Below are positions 7,344 to 41,175 of a DNA stretch of 41,175 bases, piece after piece. Positions within the stretch are counted from its first letter, which is position 1, and each line of letters starts with the position of its first letter. Both the position numbers and the translations under genes were made by a program. The notes under the pieces are model-generated. The model made no database searches. It had not been told where the DNA came from and was given only the letters and a program-made list of their open reading frames with translations. Source of the stretch: a virus. The stretch is from IMG/VR virus record IMGVR_UViG_3300045283_000417, positions 1-41,175 of that record; one strand, given 5' to 3'.

Positions 7344-7880
7344 GTGATTACACTATTCCAGCTTTCGAAGATCGCTCGCACGGCGTCTCGGGCTCGGCTT
7401 TCGGGGTTTATTAACCCACTAAATGATGCAATGAGACAACACGCGATTGATACCCCTATCAGGTGTGCGGCTTTTATAGCTCAAGTGTGCTATGAGTCCG
7501 GCGATTTCTACGTCCTGAGAGAGATGACCTCGGGCAAGGAATACGAGGGGCGCGCTGATCTTGGAAATACTGAGCATGGGGACGGACCGCGCTATAAAGG
7601 ACGAGGGCTCCTGCCGATCAAAGGCCGGGAAATGTATGAGCTATGCGGGAATGAATTGGGGGTTGATTTCATCAGTGACCCGGACCTTTTGGAAGAGCAT
7701 CCGCATTCGTCTCGCTCTGCCGCATGGCTTTGGGCTGAGTTCAAGAATATGAATCTGCTCGCAGATCAAAGGGAACTCATCAGGATCACAAAGCGGCTCA
7801 CTGGTGGCTATTACTCTGGATTGGCTGCGCGCGTTATGTACCATGATCGCGCCATGCGGGCTTTGGGGTTGGATGTATGA
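7344..7880 (+). CDS. GH19-family endolysin (muramidase/chitinase fold)
   Basis: A 178-residue soluble enzyme starting at GTG 7344 (nearby ATG 7334 is in another frame). GH19 features: FIAQVCYESGDF with catalytic-acid candidate E51, second Glu E60 nine residues on, YEGRADLGN, then GDGPRYKGRGL and a C-terminal RITKRLTGGYYSGLAAR. It would cleave peptidoglycan glycan strands at lysis. The usual G-R-G-x-I-Q-x-T-G-R loop reads GRGLLPIKGR here, so the common Gln and Thr are replaced. No signal sequence, so it needs a holin for export. Confidence 0.85.
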   Translation: MITLFQLSKIARTASRARLSGFINPLNDAMRQHAIDTPIRCAAFIAQVCYESGDFYVLREMTSGKEYEGRADLGNTEHGDGPRYKGRGLLPIKGREMYELCGNELGVDFISDPDLLEEHPHSSRSAAWLWAEFKNMNLLADQRELIRITKRLTGGYYSGLAARVMYHDRAMRALGLDV

Positions 7881-8427: not shown

Positions 8428-8622
8428 ATGGGTGGCAACGTAGTCTTTCTAGCGTATTCGAGCAAAAAGGTGGATGAAGATGCGCAATCATTGATTGCCT
8501 GCAAACACTGTCGAAACAAGACATTCAAGGTTATTTATTTCGTTGATGGTTTCCCGATGTTGCAATGCGCGGCTTGTGACGATCACATAAGCCGGATTGG
8601 CTGGGCAGAAGATGGTAAATAG
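8428..8622 (+). CDS. Small zinc-ribbon protein
   Basis: 64 residues from ATG 8428, chosen because it follows AAGGGG. Cys pattern C25-x2-C28 and C47-x2-C50 (CKHC and CAAC). Lies between the small and large terminase genes and overlaps the start of terL. Unassigned; nucleic-acid binding during packaging is possible. Confidence 0.6.
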   Translation: MGGNVVFLAYSSKKVDEDAQSLIACKHCRNKTFKVIYFVDGFPMLQCAACDDHISRIGWAEDGK

Positions 8623-9862
8623 GGCCGAGTTTCCCGAAAAGCTCCAATTCTTATTTGAGCCACATCGATACAAGATCCTCTACGGTGGCCGGGGCGGGGC
8701 GAAGTCATGGGGAGTTGCCAGAGCATTGCTGATACAGGGTGCCGCAAGCCCATTGCGTATTTTATGCGCACGCGAGTTCCAGAACTCTATTGCAGACTCG
8801 GTGCATCATTTATTACAGTCACAGATATCAGCCATTGGCCTGGACAATTTCTATGAGATTGAGAAGGCCGCGATCTATGGACGCAACGGGACACAGTTCG
8901 TTTTTGCTGGCATCAAGAACAACACATCCAAGATAAAGTCATTCGAGGCCATTGACCGGGTATGGATCGAAGAGGCGCAGAACGTAAGTAAATCTTCATG
9001 GGATACCCTCATCCCAACCGTTCGCAAGGATGCCTCAGAAATATGGGCAACGTATAACCCGGAACTGGAAACCGACGAGACGCACCAGCGTTTTGTGATT
9101 AACACACCAGCTGATGCAGCGGTAGTAAAGATAAATTGGAGCGATAACCCCTGGTTTCCTGAAGTACTGCAGAAGGAAAAAGACGCACTCAAGGCCAAAG
9201 ATCCCGATGGATATCAGAATATCTGGGAGGGGAATTGCAGGGTGACGCTCGAAGGCGCGATATACGCCAAAGAGTTGAGGGTTGCCCAAGAAGAGGGGCG
9301 AATTCGCAACGTGCCCTACGATGCCCTGAAGCAGGTCCACACCTTTTGGGATCTAGGTTGGGCTGATAACACAAGCCTTTGGTTCACTCAGTCAGTTAAC
9401 AACGAATTGAGGTTGATCGATTACTACTCGAACAATCAACAGCCGCTGCAGCATTACATCCAAGTGATGCAAAACAAAGGGTACATCTATGGTACGGATT
9501 GGCTGCCGCACGATGCAAAAGCGAAAACGCTTGCAACAGGGCGTAGCGTCGAAGAAATCATGGTGGCACACGGCCGCAAAGTACAGATTGTCCCCAATCT
9601 TTCCATATTCGACGGCATCAATGCAGCCAGGACCATATTCAACCGGTGCTATTTCGATGAGCGGAAATGCTCGGAAGGACTGCAAAGCTTGAGACATTAC
9701 CGCTATGACGTGGACCCGGACTCAAAGCAGTTTAGCGGGCGGCCATTGCATGACCATAACAGCCATGCGGCGGATGCTTTTCGATATTTCGCTGTGGCAA
9801 TTGAAGAAGATAGGCCGGTAAGTAGCGCACGAGGTATCAGAATGAGCGGGTGGCGGGCATGA
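8612..9862 (+). CDS. terL: Terminase large subunit
   Basis: 416 residues from ATG 8612 (TTG 8597 is an alternative). ATPase: Walker A GGRGGAKS (residues 25-32) and Walker B VWIEEAQ (117-123). C-terminal RNase H-like nuclease: FWDLGWADNTSLWF supplies the first Asp, and DHNSHAADAFRYFA near residue 390 the last. It powers DNA translocation into the prohead and cuts the concatemer. This sequence style occurs in podoviruses and PBSX-type phages and fits headful packaging, but packaging mode cannot be read directly. It overlaps the portal gene by 4 bases. Confidence 0.93.
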   Translation: MVNRAEFPEKLQFLFEPHRYKILYGGRGGAKSWGVARALLIQGAASPLRILCAREFQNSIADSVHHLLQSQISAIGLDNFYEIEKAAIYGRNGTQFVFAGIKNNTSKIKSFEAIDRVWIEEAQNVSKSSWDTLIPTVRKDASEIWATYNPELETDETHQRFVINTPADAAVVKINWSDNPWFPEVLQKEKDALKAKDPDGYQNIWEGNCRVTLEGAIYAKELRVAQEEGRIRNVPYDALKQVHTFWDLGWADNTSLWFTQSVNNELRLIDYYSNNQQPLQHYIQVMQNKGYIYGTDWLPHDAKAKTLATGRSVEEIMVAHGRKVQIVPNLSIFDGINAARTIFNRCYFDERKCSEGLQSLRHYRYDVDPDSKQFSGRPLHDHNSHAADAFRYFAVAIEEDRPVSSARGIRMSGWRA

Positions 9863-15080: not shown

Positions 15081-16352
15081 ATGGCTGAAACTAACGTAGC
15101 AAGCGGCAGTGCTATTGCAATTAAGCAGTACAGCGCCGCTCTATTTGCAAATACGCTGAAAGCAACTACAGCGATGGACAACCTGATCGGCCCGGTCGAA
15201 CCAACCTCTGCAATGCAGAAGGTGGCCGGCCAATCCGCACCAGGCATGCCAATCGTACGTATCGACAATCTGATGAAGGTTCCGGGTGACACCGTGTCGC
15301 TTGATCTGGTCGATACTGTAAGCGGCGAACCGCTGATGGGCGATGTCAACCGTGAAGGCAAAGGCAATGTCCTTGCATTCTCATCGATGGACATCAAGAT
15401 TGACCTGTCCAGCAAAGTGATCGATGCGGGTGGCAGCATGTCTCAACAGCGCACCAAGTGGCAACTGCGCGAGATTGCGCTGGCGCAATTGTCGGGCTAT
15501 TTCCCCCGCCTATCAGCACAAACCACGCTGGTGCATCTTGCCGGTTCCCGCGGTTCGCAAATGGGACAGGACTGGACCATACCACTGCAAAGTGCATCAA
15601 GCTTTGCGGGCATCATGGTCAACGCGGTCAAGGCCCCTACCTATAACCGGCATTTCGTGGTGAATGGTTCGGGCTTGACTGCTGGTGGGCAACAACTCGC
15701 ATCCATCGCCTCCACCGATGCCCTGAAATTGACTCACCTGGATCTGCTGCGCAAGAAGCTGGACGATATGGATCAGCCTCTGCAACCGTGCAAAATGGAC
15801 GGAGACAAAGCCGCGCAGACATCCAAAATGTGGGTATTCCTGGCGACTCCTAACCAGTATTCCATACTGTTGACGGAAGGCTCGTTACGCGCATTCCAGC
15901 AAAACGCGGTTAATCGCGCGGCCTATTTCGACACCAAACACCCCTTGTTTGCTGGCGAAGTCGGTATGTGGAACGGCATTCTCGTTATCAAAAACGAGCG
16001 TGCCATCCGCTTCATGCCGAGCGACAGCACGCAGATTATTACTGCTGGCAATGCCGCAACCGCAACCGAGAGTGCGCAAACCGTCAATGGTTCGCTGACT
16101 GCTGGTTATGCGGTGGAACGCGGTCTGTTGCTGGGTGCTCAAGCCTTGGGTATTGCTTATGGCAAAACCAAGATCAGCGGCATTCAATTCGGGTGGAAAG
16201 AGCACTGGTACAACTTCGAGAGCAACCTGGAAGTCATGGGCGAAAAAGCATGCGGCCACATGAAAACCCGGTTTTCCAACGATGACGGCACCGGCACCAA
16301 AGTACCGACCGATTTTGGCGTGATCGCGGTGGACTCTGCCGTTCCCCTGTAA
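15081..16352 (+). CDS. Major capsid protein (N4-gp56 / DUF4043-type)
   Basis: 423 residues. The opening AIAIKQYSAALFANTLKATTAMDNLIGPV is typical of the DUF4043/N4 gp56 capsid family; later features include VLAFSSMDIKIDLSSKVIDAGGSMSQQRTKWQLRE and VFLATPNQYSILL, then the C-terminal FGWKEHWYNFESNLEVMGEKACGHMKTRF. Follows the scaffold by 11 bases with an AAAGGAA site. It should form the icosahedral shell with the HK97 fold. Length is usual for the family. Confidence 0.88.
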   Translation: MAETNVASGSAIAIKQYSAALFANTLKATTAMDNLIGPVEPTSAMQKVAGQSAPGMPIVRIDNLMKVPGDTVSLDLVDTVSGEPLMGDVNREGKGNVLAFSSMDIKIDLSSKVIDAGGSMSQQRTKWQLREIALAQLSGYFPRLSAQTTLVHLAGSRGSQMGQDWTIPLQSASSFAGIMVNAVKAPTYNRHFVVNGSGLTAGGQQLASIASTDALKLTHLDLLRKKLDDMDQPLQPCKMDGDKAAQTSKMWVFLATPNQYSILLTEGSLRAFQQNAVNRAAYFDTKHPLFAGEVGMWNGILVIKNERAIRFMPSDSTQIITAGNAATATESAQTVNGSLTAGYAVERGLLLGAQALGIAYGKTKISGIQFGWKEHWYNFESNLEVMGEKACGHMKTRFSNDDGTGTKVPTDFGVIAVDSAVPL

Positions 16353-16370
16353 TCCATCATGACATAAGCG

Positions 16371-16386
16371 GGGCTTTCACAGCCCT
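16371..16386 (+). other. Weak hairpin between capsid and head-protein genes
   Basis: GGGCT-TTCAC-AGCCC (16371-16375 with 16381-16385) followed by TTCT rather than a T run. It could attenuate or stabilise mRNA and so set the relative amounts of capsid and the next protein. Confidence 0.4.
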
Positions 16387-16418
16387 TCTAGTCCTTTAAT
16401 TCGCAAGGAGATTTACAA

Positions 16419-16859
16419 ATGGCTAGTTTCAACGCAACAGATTTAAACACCAAAGCGCGTCCGATGGGTGCCTCTGGTAATGGTCTGGTAATTTACGGAT
16501 CAGTTACCCCAACTGCTGGCGCATCTGGTGATGTTTACCGTCCGACTCGCATTCCTGCCGGTATGTTGATTACCCAACTGGACATCAATAACGATGACCT
16601 GGATACGGGTGGCACGGCTATGTCTGCATCAATCGGGTATGAGCCGGTCAATGCTGCTGACGGACCTACCGCAAACGCCACTTACTTCTCGGCAACCGGG
16701 ACATTCCTGACTGCTGCGGGGCGCAAATCGTGCGTGTTTCTGCCCATCAAGTTCGAGAAAGATGTGTATATCACGCTGACCTTGACCGTATCCGCGACCA
16801 CGTTCGCATCTGGTGTTGTAACCGCGATAGCTACCGGACAGGCCGAAGGTATCAAGTAA
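16419..16859 (+). CDS. Head decoration-like protein
   Basis: 146 residues, Ala/Thr/Gly-rich and beta-predicted (MGASGNGLVIYGSV, then RIPAGMLITQLDINNDDL), with no charged clusters. It has a strong ribosome-binding site (AAGGAG) and sits directly after the capsid gene, the usual place for an abundant decoration or capsid-stabilising protein. It is followed by a terminator. Family not recognised by name. Confidence 0.6.
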   Translation: MASFNATDLNTKARPMGASGNGLVIYGSVTPTAGASGDVYRPTRIPAGMLITQLDINNDDLDTGGTAMSASIGYEPVNAADGPTANATYFSATGTFLTAAGRKSCVFLPIKFEKDVYITLTLTVSATTFASGVVTAIATGQAEGIK

Positions 16860-21207: not shown

Positions 21208-21722
21208 TCAATCCAAGCCCTACACAAGTACGCTCTACCGTAGCAGTCATGGTGCTGGCCGCGTCAACGCTTGTTGGCATTGCCTTGCATGAGGGTTATC
21301 AGGATGAGGCGTATATCCCTGCCCCCGGCGATGTGCCAACTATCGGGTTTGGCACTACTCAAGGCGTGAAAATGGGAGATAGAACGACCCCGGCCCGGTC
21401 GCTGGTGCGATTATTGGACGAAGTTGAGGGGATATACGCAGCGGGTGTGAAGAAATGCGTTACAGCGCCTTTATTCCAATACGAGTATGAAGCGTATGTC
21501 AGTCTGGCTTACAACATTGGCGTGGGCGCATTTTGCAGGAAAGCTGAACCCGGTAAGGCACCAAACCTTATTGATCTGATCAATTCAGGTAAATACGCGG
21601 AAGCCTGCGAACGAATTGAAGCATTCAAGTATGGACCGGGAAGAAAGGTTCTGCCTGGACTCGTCAAACGGCGCGCTGAAGAACGAGCGGTATGTGAAGG
21701 GAAAAAGGCAAGTCGGGTATGA
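21204..21722 (+). CDS. GH24 lysozyme with SAR-type signal-anchor
   Basis: 172 residues. N-terminal weakly hydrophobic VAVMVLAASTLVGIAL (13-28) fits a signal-arrest-release segment, which lets the enzyme pass the membrane without a holin pore. Catalytic Glu is E30 in ALHEGY; PTIGFGTT provides the Thr at 46. The usual catalytic Asp position (AY-x-D) reads AYIP, with D43 close by. It cuts glycan strands of peptidoglycan. Cys residues near the end may control activation. Confidence 0.85.
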   Translation: MINPSPTQVRSTVAVMVLAASTLVGIALHEGYQDEAYIPAPGDVPTIGFGTTQGVKMGDRTTPARSLVRLLDEVEGIYAAGVKKCVTAPLFQYEYEAYVSLAYNIGVGAFCRKAEPGKAPNLIDLINSGKYAEACERIEAFKYGPGRKVLPGLVKRRAEERAVCEGKKASRV

Positions 21723-31374: not shown

Positions 31375-34300
31375 ATGGCATACACCGAGTTTGATGGCGA
31401 ATTGGACGGCGAATCGCCCGGCTATGTCGAGTTCAGTGGGGAGCTTGATAAACCCGAATCGAAACTTGATAAGGTCAAATCCTTTGTATCAAAGGGTGTT
31501 GATGCTGGCTTATCCATGCTCACTCCCAAAAAGAGCATTGCGGATCAAGCGCAGTCACAACCCACCCTGGCTGCCGACCCGGCAAGAATAAAACGCAGCA
31601 ATCAGATTGGATTGAAAGCGTTCACTTCCGCCGAACCCGTTCCCGAAGAAGGCGGATTTATCAACTCTGCTGGACGCACGATCGGACAGAATATCAAGGG
31701 CGCCGGACAGGTAGCGGCTGATTATCTCGGTGCTGGTAGCAATAATGCCGTCAAGCAATACGGTCAAGCCGTCATCGATGCAAACCCCACGGCAGTAAAT
31801 AGCCTGGGTGACATTGCAGACAAACCCGGCACCGCTGTAGCGGAAGCGACAGGCAACGCTGCGCCGTCTATGGCGGGCATGATTGGTGCGCGAGCCGTAG
31901 GACAGGGCATTACCGCACTCTCCCCGCTTGCCGGGCCTGCTGCGCCCCTGGTAGCCGCTGCCGGTCAGGTTGTCTCATGGCTTGGACCCGCTGCAATCGC
32001 TGCGCTACCGTCTTACGGCGGTATCCGCGAGAAACAAATCTCGAATGATCCCGCTGCTCAACAATCAGCCAAAGCCAAGGCCATTGCAGCGATGGGAGCC
32101 GCTGCCGTTGCTGGTATAGAGGTGGCGTTTGGCCCTCAGAATTGGGCGCTTGCCGCCATGACAAAGCAGGGGCGGGCGCAAATGGCCGAGAAGTTCGCGG
32201 CAACAACGCTGGCCGGTTCAATCGGGAAAGGTGCCGTCAAAGGTAGCGCAATCGAGGGTGCTGAAGAACTCGCGCAGAATCCCATCGAACAACTGGCAGC
32301 CGGAGACAATCCCACCACACCGGAGAATCTGAAGGACACAGCTTTCGGTGCCGCCATGGGCGCAATCGGCGGCGGCGTCTTCGGTGGCGGTTCCGGAATG
32401 ATCCTCGGTAAACCCGCTTCCGAGCAATCCGATGGAGTTCTTAAATACACTGCTGAACGGGGTGGCAAGAAGGCAAAGGAAATAGCGCAAGCCGAACTTG
32501 ATCGACGCGCAAATCAGGGAGTTGATCCAGCCGTAGCAAATGCCCCTGAATCAACGCCAGAGGCCGTGCAGCGCATCATCGCGACTGGCAAGGATAAGGC
32601 AGACGATATCCGCGGGAAGTCAACGGAAAGCCCGGATGCGATTCAGAGCAGTATCTTTGATGAAGAGCCTAACCATATTGGTGACGCCAACAAAATGGTT
32701 GCTGCGCCTGATGCCCCCACTCCCGAACCTGTTGAAACGCTCAACGCTCAACTCAATGCGCTGGCTGATGGCCGCAAGCCGGGAGTATTACTAACACCCG
32801 GGGAACCGCTACCCAACGCATTACCGCAAGGCGTTAAGTCTGCGGATGTTCCAGGTCGCGGCACACTCCTATATCGCGATGACTCCACCCTGCATGCCGC
32901 CTTAAACGGTCAAATGGGCACGGCTCTTGGTTATGGCATCGATGAGAAACCAGCCGACGCTACCCATGCCGTGACTGCTCGGGATGAACAAGGGAACGTC
33001 ATTCAGGACGTGGCGACCGATGGCAGCAAGTCTGTGTTGCAAGCGGCTAAGAATGTAGCGGGGCCGGGTGGCACGGTAGAAGTACGTCCTGTTGCTGATG
33101 CGATGGTAGAGCGCGATGCCAACACAAAAACAAAGGATGGATTATCCAATCTTCTAGGAAAGGTTGCCAAACGCGCCGCAATGGAGAGTCAAGGACGGGC
33201 CGCGCTGGATGAGCTTGAGGAACGGAATGGTTCCCCAGCGGCGGAAGCAAAGAAGTTTTGGTCAGAGACATATTTCAAGCTACCCGCCAAAGCACAAGCC
33301 ACATTCACGCAACTACTTAAAGGCCATACCGGCATGGAGCCGGGTGTGGCGGTGAGCGTGGATCGTGATGGAAAAGTTGAACACGCCAAGGATTGGCAGG
33401 ATGTAGCTGATCTGATCGACCTGCCGAACAGTGTTGAACATTTGGAAGGGACTGATCGCGGGTTTGTTGCACTGATGGCCGATGCTAATAAACGGTTTGC
33501 ATCGACATCTGGAGCTACTCAAAATACCGATACCGCGCCTGCCACTGCGATCGAAAACAAACCACGCGAAACCCAACCTCCGGTCAACAAAGAAATCCCG
33601 ACAAAGGAAGCCGCAGCACCACACCCGATCCGACCTCTTCTAGAATCGCTGATCAAGCGCCGGGCAGCGGCAAAACAAATAGGCAAGGAACGCAGTCTAA
33701 GCAACGCGGTATCTCGCGCTAAAGAAGTCATGGAAGGCAAGCGTACGGATGCCGCCCTTGAGTCAAAATGGTTCCGGCTGCAAGCGGCTGCGATGAGAAA
33801 GGCAGACCCCGCCACGGCAGATATGCTGCTTAAGATCAGTGAAACGATAAAACCCGCCGACAAGGTTGCAAAACAGAAACCGACCGACTATGATGGTTCT
33901 CATGGAAAAACGAGCCAAAAAGACACAACCTCTGCACGTGTGCGGGGGGATAAGCGCACCGTATCGAGTGAACGGGGTGGACGAATCCTTGCAAATGGGA
34001 TTGCCGAAACCATACAAAAACACGGTGTATCAGCCCTCATTGGTCAAAAAATCGACTCGCCGGCAAAACTCGCCGAACTAGCTCAGATCTACCGCAACCC
34101 GAAATACGAAACTTTCCGCATTTTCTTCACCAAAGGTGCCAGCATTGTTCACGCTTCCGGCGTGACATCTCGCCTTCCTGGCTCTACCCCAATATTTCCT
34201 GAAGACATGACGCCAGAGCAAGGGGCGGCATGGATCAAGGGGATGATGGAATCCTCCGGAGCAGACGGATATTGGATGCTTCACAATCACCCGTCCGGAA

Positions 34301-37300
34301 TTCCTACCCCAAGCAAAGCCGACATTGACGCAACAAAGGGAATGGCAAAACTAGTGCCCGGACTGAAAGGGCACGTCATAATCAATTCCAATAAGTACGC
34401 ACAGATCATGTTTCCTAATGGCAAGATATCTGCGAGGGTAATAGATCGCCATTTTTCTGAAGAAATGCTCCTGAAGGCTTCAAAGCCACACCCCTACATA
34501 GGGAAGCGAGTTGCCCATCCAGGGGCCGTTGCGGCTATCGGCAAATCGTTCCAGAAAGAAGGCTGGGTTACGCTTATTGGGGTATCCGGACTCTCCGGAG
34601 TGCGATCCATTGCCGAAATACCGTCAACAACATTCACTAATCCAATGTTCGCAAGAGCCGCAATAAGACGCTTTTCCCGCAGCACTGGTGCGGAGAGTAT
34701 CTTTGTTTATGGGTCAGCTTCTGATTTGACCGCCGGAAATGCCAGCGACCTAATCACAGACGGATTCTTGCGCGCGGCCGTGGATGAAAATGGGGCATCA
34801 CACACGGGGAACAATAAAGGCAAATCTTTTGGCAAGAGCAGGGGGCAAGGCGGCATAGAGATAGAACAATCGAATGCGCCGTTTAATCCCTCATGGGATG
34901 CGCCTGAACCGTCAAAGATGGACAACCTGATCTACACCCTGCAGAACAAGCACGTCGATTTAAAACGTGTCGTAGAAGCAATCAAAACGACCGGCGCCCA
35001 GCTTACCGACCAGTGGAACACCTATCTGCAAGAGGAGCTATTCCACGGCAGGGCAGCGAAGCGTACGCAAGACTTCGTGAACCGCGAACTCAAGCCGATC
35101 ATGATGGGCATGAAACTGCGTGGACAGACTGTAGACGAACTGGATAAATATCTGCATGCCCGCCACGCGGAAGAGGCTAATAACCTGATCGCTGATCGAG
35201 ATCCAAACATGCCTGACGGTGGATCCGGCATGACTACCAAAGACGCAAAGGATTATCTCGCGAACCTTCCCGCGGATAAACGCACCGCGCTTGAGAATAC
35301 CGCCAAGCAGGTTGATGCCGTCATCACCAAGACGCGCAATTTATACGTTTCCTACGGACTGATCGACAAGGACACCGCCGACTCATGGGAAAATATGTTC
35401 AAGCATTACGTGCCCTTGATGCGCGAAGATCACGATGGCGGTATGGGAATAGGGCAGGGCTTCTCAATCAAAGGGAAAGAGGCAAAACACCGTACCGGCT
35501 CAAAGCGGAAAGTGGTAGACATCCTTGCCAACATTGCTTTACAGCGTGAACGTGCGATCGTGCGAGGGGAAAAGAACCGGGTTGCGGTATCCCTGGCCGG
35601 GTTGGCCAAACTGAATCCTAATCCTGATTTCTGGACTTTCCAGAATGCGCCTCAACGCCATTACAACGAGAAAACAGGGCTCGTGGAAGAGCGCGCCGAC
35701 CCACAATATAAAAACAGGGCTAATGTCATCGTCGCCAAGATCAAGGATAGCAAGGGAAAGGTGCAAGAGAAAGCCGTCATATTCAACGAACAGGACGAGC
35801 GCGCGATGCGTATGGCCGCCGCCATGAAGAATCTTGATGCGACCCAACTTGAGGGAGCGCTGGGGGTATCCGCTGCAATCACTCGCTATTTCGCCGCGAT
35901 TAACACGCAATACAATCCTGTCTTTGGCGTGGTCAACCTGACGCGAGACTTGCAAGCATCCTTACTCAATCTTTCCTCAACTCAGATTGCCGGGCACAAG
36001 GCGCAAGTCCTAAAGAACATTGTCCCCGCCATTATTGGTATTTACAGGGCATCGCGGGCCAATACAAAAGGAAAGGCGCAAGTACGCTCACCTATGGCCG
36101 ACCTATGGGATGAGATGCAACAGGAAGGCGGCATGACCGGCTACCGCGATCTATTCAAGACCAGCGAGGACCGGGCAAACGCGATCAAGGGTGAGTTGGA
36201 CCCTACCGCCTGGATGAATAGCGGGCTGGGAAAGATATTCACCGCTGGCGGCGCATTAAAGGTTCCGCTGGCCGTCGCACAGAAACGGGCAAAGTGGTTG
36301 TTCGATTGGCTATCCGACTATAACCAAACGCTTGAAGGCGCCATGCGGTTATCGGTTTATAAGGTTGCGATCGATAACGGGGTAAGCAAGCCGCGCGCCG
36401 CCAGCATTGCCAAGAATATCTCTGTCAATTTCAACCGCAAGGGACAGTCTGGGCAACAGGCCGGGGCGCTGTACGCCTTCTTCAATGCTGCCATGCAGGG
36501 CACGGCGCGCATGGGCGAAACCATGACGACAATGGAAAAGGGCGATCCCAAAACGTTCAAGTTCAACCGCGCCGGGAAAACGATCATTGCCGGTGGCATA
36601 TCGCTTGGTGTCATACAAGCGCTGGCGCTGGCCGCTGCCGGATTCGATGATGATGAGCCGCCCGAATTCGTGCGCGAGCGTAGCCTGATAATCCCGATAG
36701 GTGAGAAGAAATACATCACGATCCCCATGCCGCTGGGCTTCCATGCCATACCTAACATTGGCCGGCTGAGTACGGAATTTGCCCTGGGGGGGTTCAAGAA
36801 ACCGGCTGAATACACCGTTAAACTTTTCTCTGTTTTTGCCGAAGCATTCAACCCCATAGGCAATGCTGGAATGTCCTTACAGACGATTGCGCCTACCGCT
36901 ATTGATCCGCTTGCGGCTCTGGCAGAAAACCGGGACTGGACAGGGAAACCTATATACAAGGAAGATATCAGTAAACTTTCTCCAACACCCGGATTTTCCC
37001 GAAACAAAGATACAGCCAGTGATCCGGCGAAATGGATTGCCGAAGCGATCAACACCATTTCCGGGGGAAATAAATACGTTCCAGGAATGGCAAGCCCAAC
37101 AGCGGACCAGATTGATTACCTATTCGGCCAAGTGACCGGCGGGGTAGGGCGGGAAGCAGGCAAGGCGCAACAATCGATCAAGGCCGCGTATACCGGCGAG
37201 GATCTGCCGCCGCACAAGATCCCCTTAGTCGGGCGCTTCTACGGTGACTCTTCCGGGCAATCCAGCCAGGGCAATGCGTTTTATTCAAACCTGAAGCGCA

Positions 37301-37572
37301 TCAATGAGGTTGAAGCGGAGTTGAAAGGACGGCACAAAGACAAATTGCCGATTGATGAATTCAAGGCCGAGAACCCGGAGTATAAGCTGGTGAACCTTGC
37401 CAATCTGGTTGAGCGAACCGTATCCAAGCAACGCAAGATCAAGTCCGATCTTATCAAGCATGATGCGCCTCGGGAACAAGTGAAAGCGGTTGAGGACCGG
37501 ATTACACAGCTCATGTCCGGATTCAATGGGCGTGTTAAAGAATTAAAACAGAAACAGCTAACCGCACATTAG
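31375..37572 (+). CDS. Giant polyvalent internal virion protein with JAMM/RadC-like motif and LPD38
   Basis: 2065 residues. Residues 1-100 acidic; about 150-340 Ala/Gly-rich and membrane-active in appearance (ATGNAAPSMAGMIG...). Near residue 970 is HNHPSG then PSKADID: H970, H972, S980, D983, the zinc-binding HxH...SxxD pattern of RadC/JAMM domains. About residue 1180: LQNKHVDLKRVVEAI; about residue 1510: NTQYNPVFGVVNLTRD, diagnostic of LPD38. A hydrophobic segment lies at about 1735-1755. Proteins of this kind are packaged and ejected into the host. Whether the JAMM domain is an active peptidase cannot be judged, as its upstream Glu is uncertain. Confidence 0.78.
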   Translation: MAYTEFDGELDGESPGYVEFSGELDKPESKLDKVKSFVSKGVDAGLSMLTPKKSIADQAQSQPTLAADPARIKRSNQIGLKAFTSAEPVPEEGGFINSAGRTIGQNIKGAGQVAADYLGAGSNNAVKQYGQAVIDANPTAVNSLGDIADKPGTAVAEATGNAAPSMAGMIGARAVGQGITALSPLAGPAAPLVAAAGQVVSWLGPAAIAALPSYGGIREKQISNDPAAQQSAKAKAIAAMGAAAVAGIEVAFGPQNWALAAMTKQGRAQMAEKFAATTLAGSIGKGAVKGSAIEGAEELAQNPIEQLAAGDNPTTPENLKDTAFGAAMGAIGGGVFGGGSGMILGKPASEQSDGVLKYTAERGGKKAKEIAQAELDRRANQGVDPAVANAPESTPEAVQRIIATGKDKADDIRGKSTESPDAIQSSIFDEEPNHIGDANKMVAAPDAPTPEPVETLNAQLNALADGRKPGVLLTPGEPLPNALPQGVKSADVPGRGTLLYRDDSTLHAALNGQMGTALGYGIDEKPADATHAVTARDEQGNVIQDVATDGSKSVLQAAKNVAGPGGTVEVRPVADAMVERDANTKTKDGLSNLLGKVAKRAAMESQGRAALDELEERNGSPAAEAKKFWSETYFKLPAKAQATFTQLLKGHTGMEPGVAVSVDRDGKVEHAKDWQDVADLIDLPNSVEHLEGTDRGFVALMADANKRFASTSGATQNTDTAPATAIENKPRETQPPVNKEIPTKEAAAPHPIRPLLESLIKRRAAAKQIGKERSLSNAVSRAKEVMEGKRTDAALESKWFRLQAAAMRKADPATADMLLKISETIKPADKVAKQKPTDYDGSHGKTSQKDTTSARVRGDKRTVSSERGGRILANGIAETIQKHGVSALIGQKIDSPAKLAELAQIYRNPKYETFRIFFTKGASIVHASGVTSRLPGSTPIFPEDMTPEQGAAWIKGMMESSGADGYWMLHNHPSGIPTPSKADIDATKGMAKLVPGLKGHVIINSNKYAQIMFPNGKISARVIDRHFSEEMLLKASKPHPYIGKRVAHPGAVAAIGKSFQKEGWVTLIGVSGLSGVRSIAEIPSTTFTNPMFARAAIRRFSRSTGAESIFVYGSASDLTAGNASDLITDGFLRAAVDENGASHTGNNKGKSFGKSRGQGGIEIEQSNAPFNPSWDAPEPSKMDNLIYTLQNKHVDLKRVVEAIKTTGAQLTDQWNTYLQEELFHGRAAKRTQDFVNRELKPIMMGMKLRGQTVDELDKYLHARHAEEANNLIADRDPNMPDGGSGMTTKDAKDYLANLPADKRTALENTAKQVDAVITKTRNLYVSYGLIDKDTADSWENMFKHYVPLMREDHDGGMGIGQGFSIKGKEAKHRTGSKRKVVDILANIALQRERAIVRGEKNRVAVSLAGLAKLNPNPDFWTFQNAPQRHYNEKTGLVEERADPQYKNRANVIVAKIKDSKGKVQEKAVIFNEQDERAMRMAAAMKNLDATQLEGALGVSAAITRYFAAINTQYNPVFGVVNLTRDLQASLLNLSSTQIAGHKAQVLKNIVPAIIGIYRASRANTKGKAQVRSPMADLWDEMQQEGGMTGYRDLFKTSEDRANAIKGELDPTAWMNSGLGKIFTAGGALKVPLAVAQKRAKWLFDWLSDYNQTLEGAMRLSVYKVAIDNGVSKPRAASIAKNISVNFNRKGQSGQQAGALYAFFNAAMQGTARMGETMTTMEKGDPKTFKFNRAGKTIIAGGISLGVIQALALAAAGFDDDEPPEFVRERSLIIPIGEKKYITIPMPLGFHAIPNIGRLSTEFALGGFKKPAEYTVKLFSVFAEAFNPIGNAGMSLQTIAPTAIDPLAALAENRDWTGKPIYKEDISKLSPTPGFSRNKDTASDPAKWIAEAINTISGGNKYVPGMASPTADQIDYLFGQVTGGVGREAGKAQQSIKAAYTGEDLPPHKIPLVGRFYGDSSGQSSQGNAFYSNLKRINEVEAELKGRHKDKLPIDEFKAENPEYKLVNLANLVERTVSKQRKIKSDLIKHDAPREQVKAVEDRITQLMSGFNGRVKELKQKQLTAH

Positions 37573-37646: not shown

Positions 37647-38063
37647 TTAAGAATAAACAATTTTGAACAAGGCAAATATAATCATTATCGTGCAGAAGAG
37701 CAAAACACTTGCCGCAGTATGGCGAACTGTTTGGACTTCTTTCTTTGCCTCTAATAATTCCTTTCTTACCTGAATAAGACCCTCTTCCAGTGCTGCCGTT
37801 ACCGCCGTATGAGCCTGCTCGCTCACATAATCGGCGGCTTCAGTAATAACCCTTCCAGCAGTCACTTTTGCATCCGCGATACCTTTTTGCAAAGCCGTAT
37901 CGATCGCTTGACGGTACTTCATGTTCTCGGCCATCAACAACTCTACGTACCTTTGAAACACCAACCCCTGAAGCGTTATCGAAATCAAAGCAGGATCATC
38001 CTTATCAAGCAAAATATTATGCTCGATTGCTATCGTCTTTTTTATTTCATCGAAGTCAATCAT
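37647..38063 (-). CDS. traM: TraM-like conjugal transfer protein
   Basis: 138 residues: FDEIKKTIAIEHNILLDKDDPALISITL is the opening of the IncP/Ti-type TraM family, followed by a long helical region and a C-terminal transmembrane segment (SVLLFCTIMIIFALF). It is last of the leftward traK-traL-x-traM unit, the order in RP4. In RP4, TraM is a Tra1-core protein needed for efficient transfer. It overlaps the preceding gene by 4 bases. Membrane anchoring could attach the relaxosome to the envelope. Confidence 0.75.
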   Translation of the reverse strand: MIDFDEIKKTIAIEHNILLDKDDPALISITLQGLVFQRYVELLMAENMKYRQAIDTALQKGIADAKVTAGRVITEAADYVSEQAHTAVTAALEEGLIQVRKELLEAKKEVQTVRHTAASVLLFCTIMIIFALFKIVYS

Positions 38064-38347
38064 GATTTCTTCTGTGCGTTTAGAAATGCCATAGCCATCC
38101 GCACTGCTATATCATTCAACATTGGTGTTCCATCCATACGCTTCCACCACTTGGGCTGCTCGATGCGGTACTTATCCATGACGCCTTCAGCTATTTTTAG
38201 CGCAACATGAAAGTCCATTTCTTTCTTCTGACCTTCGAGAGATATACCTGATCGCATCGCTCGTAATTCAGACATCATCACTTCAACTTCTTCGCATGTC
38301 GGGGCTCTCCTGATTTCCGCAGGATCTTCATATGGCTTCGTATTCAT
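38060..38347 (-). CDS. Hypothetical protein in the tra unit
   Basis: 95 residues between traM-like and traL-like genes, with a GAGGAATT site before the ATG. KWWKRMDGTPMLNDIAVRMAMAFLN is the only distinctive part. RP4 has no gene at this place, so it is an addition. It overlaps traM by 4 bases. Unknown function. Confidence 0.6.
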   Translation of the reverse strand: MNTKPYEDPAEIRRAPTCEEVEVMMSELRAMRSGISLEGQKKEMDFHVALKIAEGVMDKYRIEQPKWWKRMDGTPMLNDIAVRMAMAFLNAQKKS

Positions 38348-38363
38348 AATTCCTCCATTGATC

Positions 38364-39107
38364 TTAATGCTGCGCCACTTCTTCTGGTTGCTCCATAACC
38401 AGACCTATACGACGATAGATTTCCTCCTTTATGCGGAACAAACGGGACTTTTGCATCAGATCAAAATCCGATGACATATTGATTTCCGCAAACGTCATCT
38501 TTCTGGTTAGCATCTTTTCCATTGCCGACGCGAATGTTTGACTCTGCTTTTCAAGCCGAACGATTCCCTTAACCCTATCTTTGTTCTTGGCATAGATTTT
38601 CATTTCATCGAATACCTTGCCTTCTGATTCAATCTTGGCGAAGTGCTCATTAAGCCATACCACTATCTGCACTTGTTCTGGCATTTGTTTAACAAGATCA
38701 GCAAAACCAGTAAGGGTTTCAAGCAACGCCGATCCACCAGCAATCACGGTATGCACAACGACCTGTTTACCGTGATCCGCGATCATCGATGCGATGTCGT
38801 TTTCGATCATGTAATTATTCAGCGCAACAAAACTGGACGCGCCATTATCGATTACGAAATTAGAATCTTCATCAAAGATCCGAAGTGTCAGGGCATCGAA
38901 TTTCTCCTCAACAATCGCGTTGCCTTCCATAAGGTCAAGGCGCTGCACCTTCAGTGCCTCATAACCGAATAGAGTTGGGTTAACCGGGTCCGCATCAATT
39001 ACCGCAACCGGTTCACCACGGCTCAAAAGATATTGAGCGATCAATGAGGCTACGAGAGACTTTCCAACGCCGCCCTTGCCCTGCAATGTGAAATGTACTT
39101 GTTTCAT
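38364..39107 (-). CDS. traL: TraL-like ParA/MinD-type ATPase
   Basis: 247 residues from ATG 39107 (after GGATCAAGA; the open frame runs further upstream but overlaps traK). Deviant Walker A GKGGVGKS at residues 8-15 directly after VHFTLQ, then DADPVNPTLFGYEAL, the signature of RP4 TraL. Walker B-like FVIDNG. A P-loop ATPase of the ParA/MinD class that is believed to act in relaxosome or DNA positioning. Gene order traK-traL matches RP4. Confidence 0.82.
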   Translation of the reverse strand: MKQVHFTLQGKGGVGKSLVASLIAQYLLSRGEPVAVIDADPVNPTLFGYEALKVQRLDLMEGNAIVEEKFDALTLRIFDEDSNFVIDNGASSFVALNNYMIENDIASMIADHGKQVVVHTVIAGGSALLETLTGFADLVKQMPEQVQIVVWLNEHFAKIESEGKVFDEMKIYAKNKDRVKGIVRLEKQSQTFASAMEKMLTRKMTFAEINMSSDFDLMQKSRLFRIKEEIYRRIGLVMEQPEEVAQH

Positions 39108-39129: not shown

Positions 39130-39423
39130 TTAAACAAGATCGTCGAGTTTTGGTGTGCTGGGTTTGAACCTTCGTCTGTCGTCGTCTGGTTCAGGTTTTT
39201 GGTTCTTTCCTTCTTCTGGTAATTTGGGTTCATTCGGTTTGCTCCTGATAAATTTTGCGATATAGCGTGCGAACTGGCTGTAGCTGATATCAACCTCTTT
39301 TTGATATTCCCGGTAGACGCTCATTGATGTTCTTCCTGCTTCAATTTTCGCCTTGATTGCATCCTTCCTGGCGAGGAAAGCTACCCTCCCGGTCCCCAAC
39401 TCCTTTGCTTCACCTGGTTTCAT
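39130..39423 (-). CDS. traK: TraK-like oriT-binding protein
   Basis: 97 residues. GTGRVAFLARKDAIKAKIEAG and SYSQFARYIAKFI are the core of the TraK family as recalled from mobile elements; the C-terminus is basic and Pro-rich. RP4 TraK binds and bends the leading side of oriT. Here it lies directly beside the candidate nick region, on the expected side, and its promoter is inside the oriT region. First gene of the leftward tra unit. Confidence 0.78.
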   Translation of the reverse strand: MKPGEAKELGTGRVAFLARKDAIKAKIEAGRTSMSVYREYQKEVDISYSQFARYIAKFIRSKPNEPKLPEEGKNQKPEPDDDRRRFKPSTPKLDDLV

Positions 39424-39451
39424 TCATTCCTCCTGTTTTCTTGCGAGAAGA

Positions 39452-39552
39452 TGCGTATTCCTGCGTATACTCGCGATTAAAATATATCCTATTATGCGGG
39501 TTCTAGCAAGAACTAAGTAAATCTAGGTGAGATATGCGAATAGTTGCGTATT
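39452..39552. repeat. TGCGTAT-type repeats in the TraK side of oriT
   Basis: TGCGTAT at 39452, 39462 and 39545, TGCGAAT at 39535. Pairs are spaced exactly 10 bases (39452/39462 and 39535/39545), so each pair faces the same side of the helix. Candidate binding sites for TraK or another relaxosome protein. Confidence 0.5.
39474..39513 (-). promoter_or_regulatory. Leftward traK promoter with overlapping inverted repeat
   Basis: Minus strand: TTGCTA (39509-39504), 17-base spacer, TATATT (39486-39481). The -35 lies in the perfect inverted repeat GTTCT-AGCA-AGAAC (39500-39513), suggesting repression at -35. Predicted start is about 39474; traK begins at 39423. Confidence 0.6.
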
Positions 39553-39555
39553 TCC

Positions 39556-39601
39556 TTGATTTTTCGTACTGGTTGCGCTAGTATCATCTAAACTTCGTAC
39601 T
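39556..39601 (+). promoter_or_regulatory. Rightward traJ-operon promoter candidate
   Basis: TTGATT (39556-39561), 17-base spacer, TAGTAT (39579-39584). The direct repeat TTCGTACT occurs in the spacer (39563-39570) and again just after the predicted start (39594-39601), a possible operator pair. It would drive 39717 onwards and run through nic. Confidence 0.5.
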
Positions 39602-39610
39602 ACGGAAAGA

Positions 39611-39620
39611 AGGCAAGATG
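39611..39620 (-). other. Candidate nic site
   Basis: The minus strand reads CATCTTG^CC, with the cut expected between 39614 and 39613. The RP4 family consensus is YATCCTG^Y, so it differs by one base. The 8 bases between the inverted-repeat arm and the cut are the same number as in RP4. The 5' end at 39613 would lead traK, traL, traM first into a recipient. Confidence 0.72.
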
Positions 39621-39621
39621 T

Positions 39622-39663
39622 GTATTGTAGGCCTACGCGCTGCGCGCTTCGACTCCCCAATAC
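39622..39663 (+). repeat. Inverted repeat beside nic (candidate TraJ-binding site)
   Basis: Arms GTATTG (39622-39627) and CAATAC (39658-39663) enclose CGCGC-T-GCGCG (39636-39646), a central hairpin. In RP4 the repeat with arms GTGAAG/CTTCAC and a central ACCCGC/GCGGGT lies at the same distance from nic, and TraJ binds its nic-proximal arm. Confidence 0.72.
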
Positions 39664-39716
39664 TTCGTTTTACTCGCCTTCGGCTCGACACGAATCTTGA
39701 AACTTAAGGAGAAACA

Positions 39717-40088
39717 ATGAGCGACAGAGACAAAGTGGTGCATGCATTCCCCGGCACAACGTTTCCTGAAAACCTGATGGAAATAGAGCGCAATGAAACC
39801 GCGACCTATCATTGCAACCATGAAAAAGTAAGCCTAAACGAGCATGACCGAACGGTGTTATGCGCCAAGTGCAAGGCAACGCTAGATCCATTTAATTTTC
39901 TGATGCACAACGCAAAAACCATACAGATGGCTTGGTATAACTACAAAACCGCAACCCAAGAAGTCAGCAAGCTCCATGAAAGAATAGGAGCTCTTAAGAA
40001 AGAAGAAAAAAGCCTGCGTGACAAAGTAAAGCGCCTCAACGAGAAGACCGGCGGGGATTTTATAAACGTGCGAGGACACCCGCTTTAA
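39717..40088 (+). CDS. Zinc-binding coiled-coil protein at oriT
   Basis: 123 residues with a good AAGGAG site. Putative metal ligands C33, H35, C49 and C52 (YHCNHEKV and LCAKC), then a helical segment ending in a charged coiled coil (LHERIGALKKEEKSLRDKVKRL). Lies where RP4 has none, between oriT and the traJ leader. It could be a relaxosome accessory DNA-binding protein or a phage single-strand-DNA-binding protein. Function unknown. Confidence 0.6.
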   Translation: MSDRDKVVHAFPGTTFPENLMEIERNETATYHCNHEKVSLNEHDRTVLCAKCKATLDPFNFLMHNAKTIQMAWYNYKTATQEVSKLHERIGALKKEEKSLRDKVKRLNEKTGGDFINVRGHPL

Positions 40089-40106
40089 TCTTGCTCTGCG
40101 AGGCTG
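40087..40106 (+). other. Leader motif resembling RP4 pre-traJ sequence
   Basis: The run TGCTCTGCGAGGCTG (40092-40106), preceded by AATCT, matches the untranslated leader just before traJ in the RP4 oriT region as I recall it (one mismatch in 20). Here traJ starts 400 bases further on, after an Ea22-like gene. The motif also occurs in other phages and plasmids, so chance transfer is possible. Confidence 0.4.
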
Positions 40107-40130: not shown

Positions 40131-40505
40131 ATGGACCAGCGCCAACAGTTTGAAAAGTGGTGGAATAGCTTGCCGCTTTCGTATCGAATGACATTCCAGA
40201 CAAATGAGCATCATTGGGTGGGCTATCAAGCCGCGCTCGCCGCTGCACCAACACCGCCAGTGCGAGAGAGTGAACCGGTTGCTTACCAGATGTGGCACCC
40301 GAACTTTCCAACATGGGTAAATTGCAATAAGTCAGTGGCCGATCAAATGGCTACCTACAACGAAGGTCACATAATACGTCCGCTCTTTACCCATCCGGCA
40401 GATGACAAACTCAGGAAGGCTGCGGAAGAAGCTGCTGAAGTCCTTGAGTGGTATCACGAAGAAAGAATATCCGGTGAACTTCGTGCCGCACTCAAAGAAG
40501 AATGA
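40131..40505 (+). CDS. Ea22-like phage protein
   Basis: 124 residues with GAGGAAAGAG before the ATG. FEKWWNSLPLSYRM, VGYQAALAAAPTPPVRESEPVAYQM and PLFTHPADDKLRKAAEEAAEVLEWY are all standard for the Ea22/DUF551-type family of lambdoid early accessory genes. Its presence upstream of traJ with a 4-base overlap makes it part of the tra operon. Its function in phages is not known. Confidence 0.72.
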   Translation: MDQRQQFEKWWNSLPLSYRMTFQTNEHHWVGYQAALAAAPTPPVRESEPVAYQMWHPNFPTWVNCNKSVADQMATYNEGHIIRPLFTHPADDKLRKAAEEAAEVLEWYHEERISGELRAALKEE

Positions 40506-40837
40506 CACGCCCCCGCGCTAAACCCATCAAGGTATGGGTATCTGAAGATGAGCGCGCCGAAATCCTACGGCTTGCCGCTTCCGCGAATCTCTCGCAATCC
40601 GCTTACCTCCGCGCTGCCGGATTAAATCAGCGAATCCGATCCATCATTGACATAGAAGCCGTGAACGAACTCGCAAAAGTGAACGGGGATTTAGGACGTG
40701 TGGCCGGCCTATTGAAACTCTGGCTGGCTGAGAAACGCGGCATAGGTGCCGACCCTAAGCGCGTTGAAAAGACAATGGACGATTTTCGCGCCATTCAAAC
40801 AAGATTACTTAATATTATGGGGAGTGTAATGAGATGA
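40502..40837 (+). CDS. traJ: TraJ-like relaxosome protein
   Basis: 111 residues. IKVWVSEDERAEILRLAASANLSQSAYLRAAGLNQRI is the ribbon-helix-helix MobC/TraJ domain, followed by VNELAKVNGDLGRVAGLLKLWL, the most characteristic RP4 TraJ segment (ELARINGDLGRLGGLLKLWL as recalled). RP4 TraJ (123 residues) binds the inverted repeat at nic and lets TraI cut. Overlaps both neighbours by 4 bases. The relaxase it would serve is not within the window. Confidence 0.85.
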   Translation: MTRPRAKPIKVWVSEDERAEILRLAASANLSQSAYLRAAGLNQRIRSIIDIEAVNELAKVNGDLGRVAGLLKLWLAEKRGIGADPKRVEKTMDDFRAIQTRLLNIMGSVMR

Positions 40838-41175
40838 GAGTTGGTGAACTTACCGGCGCGAAGCTGGATTACTGGGTAGCGAAGGCAGAGGGGGCCGACA
40901 AGATCACACCATCTGATCTTACCAAGCGTATTCGAATCGGAGAAAGGTACGGCATCTACTCCCCCTCAACAGACTGGTCACAGGGCGGGCCGATTATCCA
41001 AAACAATTTCATTGAATTGGCGTGGAACGGTGACCCAAGCGAATGCAAAGCATCGTGGATGCACAATAATGGAGTTTATTCGTGGCAATTTGGACCTGAT
41101 GCATTGACAGCGGCCATGCGCTGCTATGTTGCCGCAAGGTTTGGTGAAGAGGTCGATGATAGCCAAGCGGATTGA
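40834..41175 (+). CDS. DUF2591-like phage protein
   Basis: 113 residues. VGELTGAKLDYWVAKAEG and YSPSTDWSQGGPIIQNNFIEL are the core of the DUF2591 family of small phage early proteins. TAAMRCYVAARFGEE is the usual ending. Its stop falls exactly at the window edge. ATGA overlap with traJ puts it in the tra operon. Function unknown. Confidence 0.75.
   Translation: MRVGELTGAKLDYWVAKAEGADKITPSDLTKRIRIGERYGIYSPSTDWSQGGPIIQNNFIELAWNGDPSECKASWMHNNGVYSWQFGPDALTAAMRCYVAARFGEEVDDSQAD

Follow-up and report, generated by a model that had tools for sequence, protein, structure and literature searches.

Is the nick region with its inverted repeat at positions 39611-39663 of a viral contig an origin of conjugative transfer (oriT), and if it is, what use would a phage have for one? 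The window analyzed here, meaning the whole 41,175-nucleotide stretch, is an IMG/VR virus contig of metagenomic origin from a podovirus-like phage. A first-pass annotation, made from the sequence alone, had read the site as an RP4-type oriT with a minus-strand CATCTTG^CC nick region and a hairpin-centered repeat; the motif, repeat, and hairpin were all confirmed, with every coordinate right.

Site geometry and plasmid relatives of the oriT

The elements of the site, which recurs in two other phage contigs (G001 and G024), are listed below.

39556-39584, plus strand: promoter-like TTGATT-17-TAGTAT, weak (8/12), predicted start ~22 nt upstream of nic
39612-39620, minus strand: nic region CATCTTG^CC, identical in 3/3 phages; the transferred strand would head toward traK
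39614-39621: 8-base spacer from the nick to the TraJ-type inverted repeat
39622-39663: imperfect inverted repeat, GTATTG (39622-39627) pairing with CAATAC (39658-39663)
39670-39689: second conserved oriT block, TTACTCGCCTTCGGCTCGAC, recognized from the plasmid alignment and phage comparison
39693-39699: truncated distal oriT arm AATCTTG (complement of CAAGATT), broken after 39699
40087-40106: intact distal oriT arm, AATCTTGCTCTGCGAGGCTG, a copy displaced to the far side of ORF 39717-40088

Minus strand 39620-39612 reads CATCTTG^CC, with the nick predicted between 39614 and 39613, and CGCGC-T-GCGCG forms the center of the repeat (39636-39646). The core CATCTTG^C meets the pattern YATCYTG^C; it had been described as one base off the RP4-family consensus, but the nearest plasmids usually have CATCTTG too, and it is not a defect. 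The claim of an 8-base spacing identical to that of RP4 held against the published arrangement, in which the 19-bp TraJ repeat sits 8 bp from nic (PMC7314908), and the spacing expected of a MOBP oriT is met. The claimed ungapped match of 22/30 bases was slightly high, the counts being 21/30 to the IncP-alpha oriT (R702 served as the reference) and 19/30 to R751. In RP4, TraI cleavage requires TraJ bound at the 19-bp repeat (PMC7314908); by analogy, the nic-proximal arm of the phage repeat would correspond to the RP4 TraJ-binding arm. In RP4, traJ is transcribed from a point 24 nt upstream of nic (PMC7314908), and the starts predicted from the promoter-like pairs of the window and of G001, where the pair scores 11/12, fall 21-22 nt upstream. 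A stricter standard promoter scan did not find the window pair and showed no excess of promoters. When folded, the window oriT DNA strand was no more structured than expected (z -0.04; G024, z -2.5), and DNA folding was left out of the evidence for the oriT. The traK-side leader contains direct repeats (TGCGAGAAGATGCGTATT / TGCGAATAGTTGCGTATT; 39442-39459 and 39535-39552) that might be TraK-binding sites.

The oriT family pattern (nic, spacer, repeat start, and TTAYTCGC) was matched once in the window and in 0/100 shuffles, and a looser nic-plus-repeat rule at exact spacing also gave a single match, with 11/200 shuffles containing any match. Matches to the oriT pattern at two loci in other viral contigs (L117 and L119) were rejected as chance occurrences inside genes of an unrelated kind of phage. 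When region 39424-39716 was compared by blastn with 72,556 plasmids, 37 records matched, with an aligned block of 39606-39699. The top match, Nitrosospira plasmid pNRS527-1 (86%, E 3e-19), is identical to the window over the 37 bases from nic through the proximal arm, and the absence of any oriT alignment, which had been named as refuting the oriT reading, was not observed. In pNRS527-1 the block has traK on one side and traJ-traI on the other, and the plasmid has coupling-protein and trb genes; the same traK / oriT / traJ-traI layout is found in Pseudomonas aeruginosa pJHX613, Nitrosomonas C91 p1, Xanthomonas pE, and R702. Multiple alignment showed the nic region, spacer, repeat, and second block to be recognizable in most of the plasmids, with R751 and R702 more diverged; the oriT of G024, like that of most plasmids, runs on through the distal arm to ATCTTGCTCTGCGAGGCT. 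RP4-type oriT cores were also seen in two plasmids typed as non-mobilizable with no tra genes annotated nearby (Sphingomonas p2, L111:3001-3077, and Paracoccus pCP157_21, L112:1251-1321).

The window phage shares with the Nitrosospira MOBP plasmids (pNRS527-1 and an NpAV contig) and the wider RP4/R751 family the nic region, 8-base spacer, TraJ-type repeat, and second block, and its traK / oriT / traJ order and polarity are alike. The expected position between divergent traK and traJ is met, and the placement of traJ on the repeat side and traK on the other, as had been claimed, held, with two ORFs (39717-40088 and 40131-40505) intervening before traJ. On the basis of the plasmid and phage oriT alignments, the TraK-like and TraJ-like flanks, and conservation in two other phage contigs, we conclude that the RP4-type (MOBP) assignment is very likely correct; nicking itself is inferred. 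What the first-pass annotation had not seen is that the element is a phage, that no relaxase was found alongside, and that the distal arm of the oriT is broken by an inserted ORF.

The tra module in its phage context

The oriT lies among tra genes that follow a long block of phage genes.

7344-37572, plus strand: phage lysis and virion block, with endolysins at 7344 and 21204, terS at 7877, terL at 8597, portal at 9850, major capsid at 15081, internal virion protein at 21719, and a 2065-aa protein with an LPD38 domain at 31375-37572
37647-38063, minus strand: TraM-like protein, 59% to the Nitrosospira NpAV homologue
38060-38347, minus strand: unidentified small ORF between traL and traM
38364-39107, minus strand: TraL (ParA-like ATPase), NCBIfam TraL E 1.5e-78, below the curated cut-off
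39130-39423, minus strand: TraK-like protein (Pfam DUF5338), 48-51% to G001, G024, and Nitrosospira plasmid TraK
39717-40088, plus strand: unknown ORF inserted in the distal part of the oriT
40131-40505, plus strand: unknown phage-cargo-like ORF, 4-base overlap with traJ
40502-40837, plus strand: TraJ (ribbon-helix-helix oriT-binding protein; Pfam NikA-like, E 1e-19)
40834-41175, plus strand: P22 NinX-like gene (PF10765, E 5e-21), 4-base overlap with traJ; the contig stops at its stop codon

Virion and packaging genes are both present, as required of a phage-plasmid, and the replication gene is of the O-like phage type. G001 (51,003 bp) and G024 (35,701 bp), each from another metagenome, share synteny with the window throughout the structural genes, and both have the arrangement traM-traL-traK / oriT / small ORFs / traJ; no counterpart of ORF 39717-40088 was seen in either. 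Protein identities indicate that the three are separate, diverged genomes. No tyrosine integrase was seen in the tra-bearing phage contigs, all of which are incomplete, and TraL is the only ParA-like gene that we noticed in them; plasmid-like lysogeny is no more than possible. A TraL query of the viral contigs returned nothing, and a weak NikA-like match in another viral contig (G017) was rejected as below the family cut-off. A serine resolvase gene adjoins the terminase in G001 (G001rc 16209-16847; L094:14157-14795, minus).

Across the three phages nic plus the 8-base spacer is identical at 10/10 positions and the proximal arm at 19/20, and the window and G001 oriT cores are 91% identical over 90 bases. 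By comparison, the traK-side leader no longer aligns, and coding dS exceeds 1.3, near saturation. The dN/dS of traJ is 0.04-0.13, similar to that of the capsid gene. Because the nic, spacer, and arm are conserved despite near-saturated synonymous sites and traJ dN/dS is low, we infer that the oriT and the gene for its presumed binding protein, TraJ, are both under selection; TraJ binding is likewise inferred. Window TraJ is 85-88% identical to Nitrosospira plasmid TraJ and joins those plasmids in the TraJ tree (97/95), whereas in the TraL tree the three phages form one clade (98/94). This conflict may reflect acquisition of the module from host plasmids with later exchange, single versus repeated gain not being settled.

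Proteins with 78-90% identity to the window capsid protein occur in 22 of 125 genomes of the Nitrosospira sp. NpAV family, and in one more the identity is 42%; the capsid gene is not linked to TraJ or TraK in any of these 23 genomes. One Nitrosospira-family prophage (G143; L213, L191, L192, and L215) has structural, replication, and recombination genes syntenic with those of the window phage but differs in possessing tyrosine-integrase genes, at its left end, and in lacking the oriT and linked tra genes. On its right side it stops after the large LPD-like protein, adjoining host cas genes; in the tra-bearing phages the module comes after the large protein, at the end where this integrated relative meets host DNA. 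The fuller prophage relatives lie at G144:C2 ~1,050-1,095 kb and G143:C24 ~331-395 kb, the right end of the latter abutting a host type I-E cas operon. Separately, about 11 Nitrosospira-family genomes hold a cluster of podovirus structural genes, ~20-26 kb in length (spanin-like, terL, portal, capsid, and virion proteins; G127:C1, L175-L178; G140:C6, L186-L188; G126:C1, L182-L184; flanks L189-L208), apparently at one chromosomal locus with some shared flanking host genes (FAD-oxidase, acetolactate-synthase-like, glycosyltransferase, and ligase). It is without the phage's replication, RecT, and large LPD genes and appears domesticated or gene-transfer-agent-like.

The relaxase gene and the distal arm

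The phages differ from their plasmid relatives in having no traI after traJ, in the small cargo ORFs between oriT and traJ, and in the state of the distal arm. A search of 23 viral records and G024 found no PF03432 relaxase, nor is there one in the window, G001, or G024 (contigs of 41, 51, and 36 kb, none a closed genome); the closest plasmids, searched as controls, do contain the domain. The traI and traJ genes of Nitrosospira plasmids share a 4-base overlap, and the P22 NinX gene of the window and G024 overlaps traJ to the same extent and occupies the plasmid traI slot. A cognate TraI beside traJ, a trait of plasmid transfer regions and not of the oriT itself, is thus not met. Two independent contigs stop exactly at the NinX-like stop codon (window, 41175; G024, position 1), and these ends are likely the product of provirus trimming at a gene border by the database. 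Since the contigs were probably trimmed there, a traI elsewhere in the genome is not excluded.

The distal arm of the window breaks off after AATCTTG (39699); ORF 39717-40088 comes next, and from 40087 the arm is present again in intact form. G001 is without the TCTGCGAGG motif, leaving G024 as the only one of the three phages with a full-length oriT. The distal arm ATCYTGCTCTGCGAGG, present in nearly all aligned plasmids, is interrupted in the window, lost in G001, and intact in G024; whether this oriT needs it for function is not known. The nic and putative TraJ-binding parts are intact in all three phages.

Proposed trans-mobilization and rival explanations

Sequence homology, layout, conservation, and linkage to phage genes in three contigs are shown, as is the lack of a relaxase in the available sequence. 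The best explanation, to which we assign a probability of about 0.6, is that these are relaxase-less phages mobilized in trans by the TraI and secretion system of a co-resident MOBP plasmid; binding, nicking, transfer, and the action of TraI in trans are all inferred. A tailed-phage lineage would have acquired oriT with traJ, traK, traL, and traM from a Nitrosospira MOBP plasmid, and selection would retain them. With phage TraJ bound to the nic-proximal arm of the repeat and TraK to the region on the traK side, the oriT would be ready for TraI of a co-resident plasmid of the same family to nick the minus strand at 39613/39614. The phage genome would next leave the cell as single-stranded DNA, traK end first, through the plasmid coupling protein and type IV secretion system, giving the phage conjugation as a route of spread in addition to its virions. 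Several Nitrosospira-family genomes hold TraJ-oriT systems that could supply TraI. Against this reading stand the split distal arm of the window and the absence of TCTGCGAGG from G001, which leave only G024 full-length, as well as the lack of any transfer or nicking data, the incompleteness of all three genomes, the failure to find a cultured phage with the module, and the chromosomal relatives without it. A bolder version, a dual-vehicle virus that is a functional tailed phage and, having dropped the relaxase gene, is also mobilized in trans by conjugation with the help of its own oriT and relaxosome proteins, is one that we would not yet back over its negation.

An assembly chimera of phage and plasmid is conceivable for a metagenomic contig, but it is all but excluded by the same junction and gene order in three independent metagenomes with diverged proteins. 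The phage might instead encode its own relaxase in an unsequenced part and need only a secretion system, being self-sufficient for nicking. The three contigs are incomplete, and the apparently trimmed ends of the window and G024 could have cut off plasmid-like genes beyond NinX; nevertheless, the usual slot after traJ is without traI in both contigs that reach beyond it and none is present in the 51 kb of G001, so we regard this alternative as unlikely. A purely regulatory use, with TraJ/TraK and the oriT repeats forming an autoregulated promoter for cargo genes and no DNA transfer, has a precedent in RP4 TraJ, which represses its own promoter through the oriT repeat (PMC7314908). The promoter-like sequence ~21-22 nt before nic in the window and G001, as in RP4, would transcribe the cargo ORFs, traJ, and NinX, and it is this position that the inserted ORFs use. 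This too seems improbable, as the nic bases and block 39670-39689, which lie outside the repeat, are conserved as much as the repeat, and TraL and TraM are also retained.

Two further alternatives appear weaker still. The phage oriT and relaxosome proteins could act as a decoy, titrating TraI/TraJ and blocking plasmid transfer or entry, and the closeness of phage to plasmid TraJ (85-88%) together with the missing TraI would suit such fertility inhibition; there is no direct evidence for it, however, and TraL/TraM and the conserved traK/traJ polarity would be unneeded. Alternatively, the module could be a passenger in decay, a piece of plasmid that recombination brought in and that is now being lost, as the split arm of the window, its loss in G001, the lack of a detected traI, and the patchy distribution among relatives might suggest. 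Such decay is hard to reconcile with open reading frames, purifying selection on traJ, and an oriT core that is well conserved between the window and G001 despite near-saturated synonymous sites.

Oriented against known systems, the trans-mobilization reading finds partial parallels. Like the pOriT / iOriT hitchers (PMC11389934), the window phage has an oriT in cis and no relaxase in the incomplete sequence available, and it would need TraI and a secretion system in trans; it differs by its own relaxosome accessory genes and its virion and lysis block. Phage-related elements with an oriT also occur among the P1-like phage-plasmids and the plasmids that descend from them (PMC10879196, PMC12977533). 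In the open-access literature searched, P1-like elements that have an oriT have lost virion genes, and the oriT serves to place them among the plasmids (PMC10879196, PMC12977533). The two P1-related oriT cases of PMC12977533 were assigned to the plasmids for want of virion proteins, which the window phage has. Searches of 50,697 phage records for TraJ, TraK, and the DNA of the module were negative, the oriT block giving only 25-base matches at E about 1. That such a phage lineage is absent from the open-access literature searched does not by itself show that it is new.

Conjugative elements and phages are treated as two separate kinds of vehicle. Here, a phage family related to prophages of the soil ammonia oxidizer Nitrosospira carries a well-preserved oriT and four of the proteins that dress it. 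A lineage with both virion genes and a selected oriT raises the directly testable question of whether a phage genome can enter a cell by mating and so bypass receptor loss. If it can, there would be consequences for gene flow among the ammonia oxidizers that drive soil nitrification.
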